Source: an uncultured Selenomonadales bacterium
GTDB taxonomy: Bacteria; Bacillota; Negativicutes; Acidaminococcales; Acidaminococcaceae
Assembly (NCBI GenBank): GCA_900315805.1
Contig: ONAN01000001.1
Span: 1 to 64,000 of the forward strand
Length of the DNA: 64,000 bases
Direction: 5' to 3'
In this document: positions 42,155 through 44,503 of the stretch, piece by piece
How positions within the stretch are numbered: position 1 is the stretch's first letter
Layout of the letters: every line of letters starts with the position of its first letter
Position numbers and translations under genes: made by a program
The notes under the pieces: generated by a model
Seen by the model: only the letters and a program-made list of their open reading frames with translations
What the model was told of the DNA's origin: nothing
Database searches by the model: none

Positions 42155-43809
42155 TGAAGAACAGGAAGTTTTCCCTCTGGACCATCTTCACGCTGGCCAT
42201 TCTGGCGTTCTTTGTGCTCTTCGTGGTCTACCCGCTCTTTCTGATCATGTACCAGAGCGTCATCGACCCGGTCAACCACCAGCTGACGCTGGACTATTTC
42301 ACGAAATTCTTCGGCCGCAAGTTCTACTGGATCACCCTGGTGCACAGCTTTGCCGTCACCATCTGCGCGACCCTGGTGGCCGCCATCCTGGGACTGCCCA
42401 TGGCCTATCTGCTGCGGAGCTACAAGGTGCCCTTCAGCAAATATGTGAACATCCTCATCGTCATTTCCTATCTGTCGCCGCCTTTCATCGGCGCCTATGC
42501 CTGGATTCAGCTCCTGGGGCGTAACGGCTTCTTCACCAAGATCGTGAACAGCCTGTTCGACCTGCACTTCGGCGGCATCTACGGCTTTTCCGGCATCGTG
42601 CTGGTCTTCTCGCTGCAGTCCTTCCCGCTGATCTACATGTACGTGTCCGGTGCCCTGAAGAATCTGGACAATTCCTTGAACGAAGCGGCGGAAAGCCTGG
42701 GCTGCAATGCCTTCCAGCGCGTGACGCAGATCATCCTGCCGCTCGTCATGCCGTCCCTTCTGGCAAGCTCCCTGCTCGTGTTCATGCGCGTCTTCTCCGA
42801 TTTCGGTACTCCCATGTTGATCGGCGAAGGCTACAAGACCTTCCCGGTCTTGATTTACACGCAGTTCATGGGCGAAGTGAGCACGGACGACCATTTTGCC
42901 GCCTCGTTGTGCGTCATCGTCGTCGTCATCACCCTGTTCCTGTTCTTCCTGCAGCGCATGCTGGCCCGTCATTATTCCTACGCCATGACGGCCCTGAAAC
43001 CCATGCAGCAGGTACAGGCGAAGGGTTCGAAGAAGTTCTTCTCGTACCTGTTCGTCTACGGCGTGTGCTTCATCGCCATGCTGCCGCAGCTGACGGTCAT
43101 CTTCACATCGTTCTTGGAAACGGTGGGCGGCGCGGTCTACACGGGCCGGTTCTCCCTCATGAACTATGAAAACACGCTGCTGTCGAAGGATAACCTGTCC
43201 ATCTTCAACACCTACGCTTATGGCATCTGCGCCATCATCCTGGTCGTGGTCCTGGGCATCCTCATTTCCTACCTGACGCAGCGCAAGCCGTCCGTTTTGA
43301 CCAACATCCTCGATACGCTGACCATGTTCCCGTACATCATTCCGGGTTCCGTCCTCGGTATCGCGCTCCTGTCCAGCTTCAACTCCGGCGTGCTCGTATT
43401 GAGCGGCACGGCGCTCATCATCATCATTTCCCTGACGATCCGCCGTATGCCGTACACGATTCGTTCCAGCACGGCCATCATCTCGCAGATCAGTCCGAGC
43501 GTGGAAGAAGCAGCCATCAGCCTGGGTGCCAGCGAATTCAAGACCTTCCGCAAAATCATGGTCCCCATGATGCTGCCGGGCGTTATGGCCGGTGCCATCA
43601 TGAGCTGGATCACCCTGATCAGCGAATTGAGTTCCAGCATCATCCTGTACACGACGCACACCATGACGCTGACCGTCGCGATTTACGCGGAAGTCATCCG
43701 CAGCAACTTCGGCAATGCCGCGGCCTATTCCACCATCCTGACGCTTACGTCCATCGTGTCGCTGCTGATTTTCTTCCGTGTTACGCACAGCGAAGACATC
43801 AGTGTGTGA
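42154..43809 (+). CDS. Fe(III)-type ABC importer permease, two fused domains
   Basis: 551 residues with about twelve membrane segments. Two binding-protein-dependent transport domains are visible, each with the EAA loop: NEAAESLGCNAFQRVTQIILP (near residue 175) and EEAAISLGASEFKTFRKIMVP (near 452). This fused layout is that of FbpB/AfuB. The ATG overlaps the ATPase stop by one base. With the two upstream genes it forms a complete importer. Confidence 0.9.
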   Translation: MKNRKFSLWTIFTLAILAFFVLFVVYPLFLIMYQSVIDPVNHQLTLDYFTKFFGRKFYWITLVHSFAVTICATLVAAILGLPMAYLLRSYKVPFSKYVNILIVISYLSPPFIGAYAWIQLLGRNGFFTKIVNSLFDLHFGGIYGFSGIVLVFSLQSFPLIYMYVSGALKNLDNSLNEAAESLGCNAFQRVTQIILPLVMPSLLASSLLVFMRVFSDFGTPMLIGEGYKTFPVLIYTQFMGEVSTDDHFAASLCVIVVVITLFLFFLQRMLARHYSYAMTALKPMQQVQAKGSKKFFSYLFVYGVCFIAMLPQLTVIFTSFLETVGGAVYTGRFSLMNYENTLLSKDNLSIFNTYAYGICAIILVVVLGILISYLTQRKPSVLTNILDTLTMFPYIIPGSVLGIALLSSFNSGVLVLSGTALIIIISLTIRRMPYTIRSSTAIISQISPSVEEAAISLGASEFKTFRKIMVPMMLPGVMAGAIMSWITLISELSSSIILYTTHTMTLTVAIYAEVIRSNFGNAAAYSTILTLTSIVSLLIFFRVTHSEDISV

Positions 43810-43839
43810 TTTTGGTCACACGTTGGCGCCCTTATGGGG

Positions 43840-43845
43840 TATAAT
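43840..43845 (+). promoter_or_regulatory. -10 box before the repeat protein gene
   Basis: GGTATAATGGAAT lies between the permease and the small exported protein. No matching -35 box is seen at 16-18 bases. Confidence 0.4.
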
Positions 43846-43961
43846 GGAATAAAGAAAATCAGACAGACCGGGCCGGAGGTGCACGCGCGCCTCCGTACCG
43901 GTCCTCGTTGTACCCGGAACCTGCGCGTTATCCGGCGATTGGCAGAAGGGAGTGGGATAGG

Positions 43962-44432
43962 ATGCGTGGCTTGGAAAAAATCGGTAACAAGATGGCGGCG
44001 GCCTTTCTGGCACTGGCGCTGGCCGCCGGCGCGACGGCCTTCGCGGCTGCCGGCGGAAATACGGTGCCCGGGGAGCAGGCAATGCTGCCGCTGGGCCTGA
44101 AGGCGGCCCTGCACGGCGGCCAGGTGCTGCCGGAACCGGGCGGGCTGCTCACGCCCAACCGGCAGACCCTGAGTTCGGCTGTTTCGGCGGCCGGTTACTA
44201 CAAAGGCATCCGGCTGGCCGGCAAGGTCCGCGTGGTGGAACACTTTCCGGACATCAAGGTCAAGGTCGTCAACAACTTTCCGGACCTGCGGGTCAAGGTC
44301 GTCAACAATTTCCCCGACGAAATCGGGGAGTGGCAGTTCGTGGAACACTTTGAGGATTTCTCCATCCAGTACGTCGACAGCTTCGAGGACATCCGGGTCC
44401 AGTTCGTCACTTCGTTCCCCGGTGTTCCCTAA
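43962..44432 (+). CDS. Small exported protein with six 11-residue repeats
   Basis: 156 residues. A signal peptide (hydrophobic AAAFLALALAAGATAFA, residues about 12-28) precedes a low-complexity Gly/Pro/Leu region to about 87. Residues 88-155 are six tandem units of about 11: KVRVVEHFPDI, KVKVVNNFPDL, RVKVVNNFPDE, then after a short insertion WQFVEHFEDF, SIQYVDSFEDI and RVQFVTSFPGV. The consensus is x-V-x-[VFY]-V-x-x-F-[PE]-D-[ILF], alternating hydrophobic and polar, as in short beta-strands joined by FPD turns. I do not recognise a characterised family. ATG 43962 follows AAGGGA with a spacer near 10. It may be read with the acyl-CoA ligase. Confidence 0.78.
   Translation: MRGLEKIGNKMAAAFLALALAAGATAFAAAGGNTVPGEQAMLPLGLKAALHGGQVLPEPGGLLTPNRQTLSSAVSAAGYYKGIRLAGKVRVVEHFPDIKVKVVNNFPDLRVKVVNNFPDEIGEWQFVEHFEDFSIQYVDSFEDIRVQFVTSFPGVP
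44223..44426 (+). repeat. Tandem 33-base repeat region inside the exported protein gene
   Basis: Six in-frame units of about 33 bases encode the 11-residue protein repeats. Units 2 and 3 are almost identical at the DNA level (GTCAAGGTCGTCAACAA shared), so at least one duplication looks recent; units 4-6 have drifted. Confidence 0.85.
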
Positions 44433-44444
44433 TCGTCCGGAAAC

Positions 44445-44453
44445 TGGTATAAT
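44445..44453 (+). promoter_or_regulatory. Extended -10 element before the acyl-CoA ligase
   Basis: TGGTATAAT lies 50 bases before the GTG start of the ligase; the -35 region (TTCCCT at 44425) is poor. Confidence 0.45.
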
Positions 44454-44503
44454 GGAATTCATCAGATGACGACAGCAAGTGTTGGACGAAACGGAGAGAG
44501 GAA

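Follow-up and report, generated by a model that had tools for sequence, protein, structure and literature searches.

The 156-amino-acid protein P0001, encoded on a 64,000-nucleotide stretch of contig ONAN01000001.1 from an uncultured Selenomonadales bacterium (this whole stretch is referred to below as the window), adds an exported member to an already known and very unusual fold family, that of the Ureaplasma protein Q9PR55 (UU089.1). No protein knot more complex than 7_1 is known to have been confirmed, and its discussion has centred on two proteins to which no role is assigned. The Q9PR55 family is much wider than described: it now extends over at least seven bacterial lineages as well as phages, with a fixed number of repeats and a cysteine pair that is gained or lost as a unit. 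The identity of the window protein is well supported; as for its function, our best guess is a very stable binding protein of the envelope that has been spread partly by phages and has no conserved catalytic site.

The gene occupies positions 43962–44432 of the plus strand (ATG start, TAA stop codon included), a reading frame that is backed by homologues and is under purifying selection, with dN/dS ratios of 0.14–0.17 (0.045/0.31 against the homologue L002 and 0.18/1.10 against L003). An antisense ORF of 245 amino acids (43725–44462) was considered as a gene and rejected, since conservation follows the plus frame. Residues 1–28 (43962–44045, plus strand; MRGLEKIGNKMAAAFLALALAAGATAFA) form a probable signal peptide, judged by eye from a charged n-region, a hydrophobic h-region and an AxA-like site, and signal-peptide-like N-termini are also present in homologues. 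The initial annotation placed the repeats after a signal peptide; export stands, and the repeats do not adjoin the signal peptide, as about 58 residues (29–85; 44046–44216, plus strand) intervene. This stretch is lineage-specific in alignments A1, A2 and A6 and ends in AGYYKGIRLAG, the start of the conserved domain; the same alignments place a cysteine at this boundary in many other lineages.

The gene is flanked by an operon of three ABC transporter genes (for the solute-binding protein, the ATPase and the permease) and by a gene for an AMP-binding ligase. No phage genes surround it: the window copy is chromosomal and lies outside any prophage. A scan for promoters and terminators gave nothing above background. 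The string TATAATGGAAT is found at window positions 43840–43850 and 44448–44458, upstream of the repeat gene and of the AMP-binding ligase gene, and may be a shared −10 region; the promoter scan called no sigma-70 site there at its threshold.

The six repeat units initially read from the sequence are real, and all six have been located on the plus strand by sequence and by predicted AF2 strands. The first triplet comprises VRVVEHFPD (44226–44252) and two copies of VKVVNNFPD (44259–44285 and 44292–44318); past the EIGE loop (44319–44330, plus strand, assigned by alignment) the second triplet continues with WQFVEHFED (44331–44357), IQYVDSFED (44364–44390) and VQFVTSFPG (44397–44423). The common pattern is VxxF[PE][DG], with its anchors spaced 11, 11, 13, 11 and 11 residues apart; given the 13-residue step in the middle, the domain is to be seen as two triplets split by the EIGE insert and not as six uniform units. 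Self-identity at an offset of 11 amounts to 26 residues compared with a shuffle maximum of 15, and none of the 20,000 shuffles comes up to 26 at offsets of 4 to 24: chance does not account for the 11-residue periodicity. Units 2 and 3 are indeed nearly identical in DNA (24/27 nucleotides, all three changes synonymous; 9/9 residues in the protein). Since the 3+3 plan is also found in other phyla, there is no fresh duplication in the window gene. In relatives that contain cysteines the EIGE loop is the second cysteine site (DCGEW), and the window protein has I at that position.

A phmmer search of the PDB sequences with the window protein returns one significant match, Q9PR55 (8iwa, E=2.3e-8; further entries of the same protein are 8iwb, 8iwc, 8jrm and 8w68). 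Profiles of 17 and 30 relatives match Q9PR55 at 1.3e-15 and 4.9e-15, respectively, and on these sequence comparisons homology between the domain of about 85 residues and Q9PR55 is well supported. We used AF2 to model the 86-residue window domain together with 37 relatives (38 sequences). The resulting model is ordered, not disordered (pLDDT 90.1, pTM 0.75), and has six strands at domain residues 17–21, 28–32, 39–43, 53–56, 63–67 and 74–78, one in each repeat, in agreement with the earlier proposal that every repeat supplies a single short strand and an FPD turn. A model of the mature protein, N-terminal region included, from a 17-row alignment reaches a pLDDT of only 37.

Q9PR55 was predicted to form a 7_1 knot with a core at residues 27–83, and its homologue P73136 a 5_1 knot, a difference ascribed to one extra winding (Brems et al. 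2022, PMC9278004); the knot of Q9PR55 has been confirmed by crystal structure (PMC13352647, PMC11223836). In Foldseek searches with the AF2 model, entries of Q9PR55 alone fall below E 0.001 (TM 0.52–0.63, rmsd 3.3–3.6, 38% identity), its crystal chains scoring at E 2e-5, probability 1.00 and TM 0.57–0.63; a BFVD search with the model gave no match. VIA-align superimposes model residues 2–85 on chain residues 13–84 (Z 6.9, 70 residues, 3.3 Å), a span that takes in the published knotted core. A VIA-align Z below 8 is weak alone; here, an independent and strong match by sequence agrees with it. The combination of this Z and rmsd implies that the end strands of the window domain may differ from those of Q9PR55.

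The initial annotation envisaged a small beta-solenoid or stacked sheet with a number of repeats that may change between strains. The AF2 model, in which every repeat has a single strand and a single turn, as well as the perfect 11-residue periodicity inside each triplet, are what such a protein would show, and yet we consider an unknotted solenoid of this kind very unlikely. The sole credible fold match of the window protein, independently backed by sequence, is the 7_1-knotted Q9PR55, and the central G-x-W loop is fixed. Moreover, solenoids usually vary in coil number, but none of the 84 distinct domains (modal length 82–83, maximum 88) has gained a repeat; some copies are truncated at one end, and copy-number change in any other form is not seen among them. 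Foldseek and VIA-align returned no solved solenoid among their matches, although absence from such a list is not proof.

A torus knot in the window protein itself is what its kinship with Q9PR55 would predict. The knot type is another matter: against assigning it by homology stands the fact that homologues within the family are reported with different knots (5_1 and 7_1). At the C-terminus, precisely the part in which 5_1 and 7_1 could differ, the sequence and structural alignments to Q9PR55 are out of step by about one repeat, and in the sequence alignment the last repeat of the window protein extends past the end of Q9PR55. As the two knots differ by one winding, both 5_1 and 7_1 are possible.

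How far does the family reach? With the window protein as query, homologues turn up in 37 of 100 genomes (its own genome counted), including 12 of the 13 other genomes of the window's genus, meaning that the repeat pattern is conserved in related genomes. In the Bacillota sample they are confined to the window's class (6/398 genomes overall, with 14 of that class sampled; 0/384 of the others), while 13/194 cyanobacteriotal and 9/247 bacteroidotal genomes carry one; further homologues come from Desulfovibrio, Succinatimonas, Myxococcota, Leptospira and Burkholderia. The lineages with relatives are accordingly Negativicutes, Bacteroidota, Cyanobacteriota, Pseudomonadota, Myxococcota, Desulfovibrio and Leptospira, from a sampling in which Actinomycetota were left out. 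Cyanobacterial members have the 3+3 plan; L033 and L034, both cyanobacterial, are 59–61% identical to the window domain. Desulfovibrio has two tandem copies of the gene (L032:316–918). The members found belong to two-membrane bacteria, with the exception of the wall-less Ureaplasma, and most have signal peptides, which indicates an envelope location.

Comparison of gene neighbourhoods across lineages uncovered no recurrent chromosomal partner gene. At one locus (L083:452–6389), downstream of a Negativicutes member, lie DUF3841, a GmrSD-type gene (PF03235) and an apparent type I restriction methylase gene, an arrangement like that of a defence island; at another (L064) a GmrSD-like gene adjoins a truncated family copy.

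Two cysteines, at domain columns 8 and 51, are either both present (35 of the 84 domains) or both missing (49), and never single (0). This strict co-occurrence suggests a bond between them: in many lineages the pair is probably a disulfide that would tie the domain's N-terminal end to its central loop. In the window lineage the pair is absent. Apart from the cysteines, the conserved positions of the domain are core valines, turn Asp/Gly and one Lys, and only V22, D27, V33, V57, V68 and D73 are invariant in alignment A6. With no polar active-site set among them, an enzyme is unlikely. A secreted enzyme with an active site built by the repeats could make use of the Asp and Lys that are conserved at the turns, and enzymes make up most of the knotted proteins known (PMC13352647); we give this reading hardly any credence, because what is conserved comes back from repeat to repeat, as turn positions and core valines, no Ser/His/Cys set is shared by the members, and neither Pfam nor NCBIfam yields a match to an enzyme family. 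These two databases hold no family for the window protein, and weak matches among other members are to scattered, unrelated families. The initial annotation linked the protein to no characterised function, and this holds for the members found here.

The phage copies, most of which have signal peptides, come from IMG/VR contigs and were found by alignment queries; searches of annotated phage records and a viral scan with the single protein gave no match. PHROG 6462, a phage family of unknown function, matches the window protein at 7.4e-30 over profile positions 10–103 of 103, and matches 38/38 of the aligned members (best 5.7e-45). In three contigs (L085, L089 and L098) the gene is directly beside baseplate-hub genes, on the opposite strand and between PHROG 4930 and PHROG 5233 genes, the latter being DUF6046 in L085 and L089. 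The baseplate-hub neighbour is Phage_GPD in L091 and PHROG 196 in L096, and in L132 gene order alone makes such a neighbour probable. In L093 the gene adjoins a minor tail gene and is on the opposite strand; in L088 it has a lysozyme gene nearby, and in L087 the gene of the terminase small subunit. A plasmid of Leptospira weilii carries it inside an operon of tail genes, together with those for tail protein X, DUF6046 and baseplate J. The tail/baseplate-hub placement is observed repeatedly, and we count it as a positional association, not as an enrichment test. In the tree, which rests on 87 columns, copies from phages and from chromosomes are intermixed, with five changes between them, at least two of which are forced by supported branches. 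On a Bacteroidota viral contig, a family member is preceded by a gene for an exported lipoprotein-like protein with short CxGYGYxVxYTIRG repeats (L090:6363–6707), another small-repeat envelope protein.

These observations lend some weight to a phage-derived lysogenic-conversion factor: an exported moron of a temperate-phage tail/baseplate cluster, domesticated in the window's genus, that would protect the lysogen, with superinfection exclusion at the envelope as one conceivable way. The adjacency to baseplate-hub and other tail genes, the mixing of phage and chromosomal copies, the uniform match to PHROG 6462, and the signal peptides of the opposite-strand copies in L085, L089, L098 and L093 all agree with it. 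On the other hand, the window copy is without surrounding phage genes and the gene is kept in nearly all congeneric genomes, a search with the PADLOC defence models gave 0 families, and two phage copies (L086:4895–5143 and L091:5769–6002) lack the signal peptide that most members have. In Leptospira the copies share the strand of the tail genes, an arrangement that would suit a part of the virion as well. We regard this account of the window protein as rather unlikely, and would hold with still more reserve the general proposition that the torus-knotted proteins are exported envelope proteins spread by phages, which would carry them as morons next to the baseplate hub, where they alter how phages infect the lysogen; the window copy and other chromosomal ones would be domesticated descendants. 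If the phage-spread envelope reading were true, it would provide the first biological role for the most complex protein knot. In any case, carriage by phages and the recurring place beside baseplate genes are new, and constitute a first concrete hint as to where a function might be sought.

The explanation we consider probable is that of an exported Q9PR55-family member with a torus-knotted beta domain (5_1 or 7_1), acting as a stable, non-enzymatic binding or protective protein of the envelope. Each 11-residue unit would contribute one short strand and an FPD/FED turn, and the two strand triplets, parted by the G-x-W loop, would most likely interwind into a compact torus-knotted domain. The knot may render this domain unusually stable and protease-resistant, and the protein most likely works in the cell envelope, by binding or by protecting, and not as an enzyme. 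The initial annotation thus captured the feature, its export, its strand-and-turn build and its order; solenoid and copy variation fell away, and the link to the Q9PR55 family had been missed. For folding studies the family offers many natural variants, with and without the putative disulfide and possibly 5_1 versus 7_1.

Among the systems compared, DUF6150 (PF19647) is similar to the window protein in being exported, about 95 amino acids long and built of 3+3 strand-like repeats around a G-x-W loop; its repeats are of 13 residues (YxSQADLK), as opposed to 11. PF19647, which databases may have renamed as a 7_1 knot domain, was considered as the family of the window protein and rejected: in the Pfam version searched it is DUF6150, hmmscan gives no match to the window protein above the curated cut-off, and a search of the window's own genome with PF19647 came back empty. 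Aligned by hhalign, DUF6150 and the window family meet in the correct register at E 0.011 and a probability of 4%, and periodic shuffles can score higher. DUF6150 proteins occur in Bacteroidota, and those at loci L143–L147 are a possible sister knot family. PHROG 6462 is a family of phages, whereas the window copy is chromosomal. The Knotted Solenoid fold (3_1; 9RDS, 9QIX, 9SOJ) is likewise a small knotted bacterial beta protein of repeated coils; unlike the window protein, it has pentapeptide-repeat relatives, triangular coils and a trefoil knot (PMC13123833). It is absent from the matches of our sequence and fold searches with the window protein. P73136 (112 amino acids), which we take to be a Synechocystis protein, is a reported homologue of Q9PR55 and resembles the window protein through the 3+3 repeats of cyanobacterial members. 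Closest is Q9PR55 itself, alike in homologous sequence, in short-strand VxxFPD repeats and in fold, as the sole PDB match. Its N-terminus is different and its sequence can be aligned only through about the fifth repeat, whereas the window protein is exported, carries an N-terminal extension and has a complete sixth repeat at its C-terminus.
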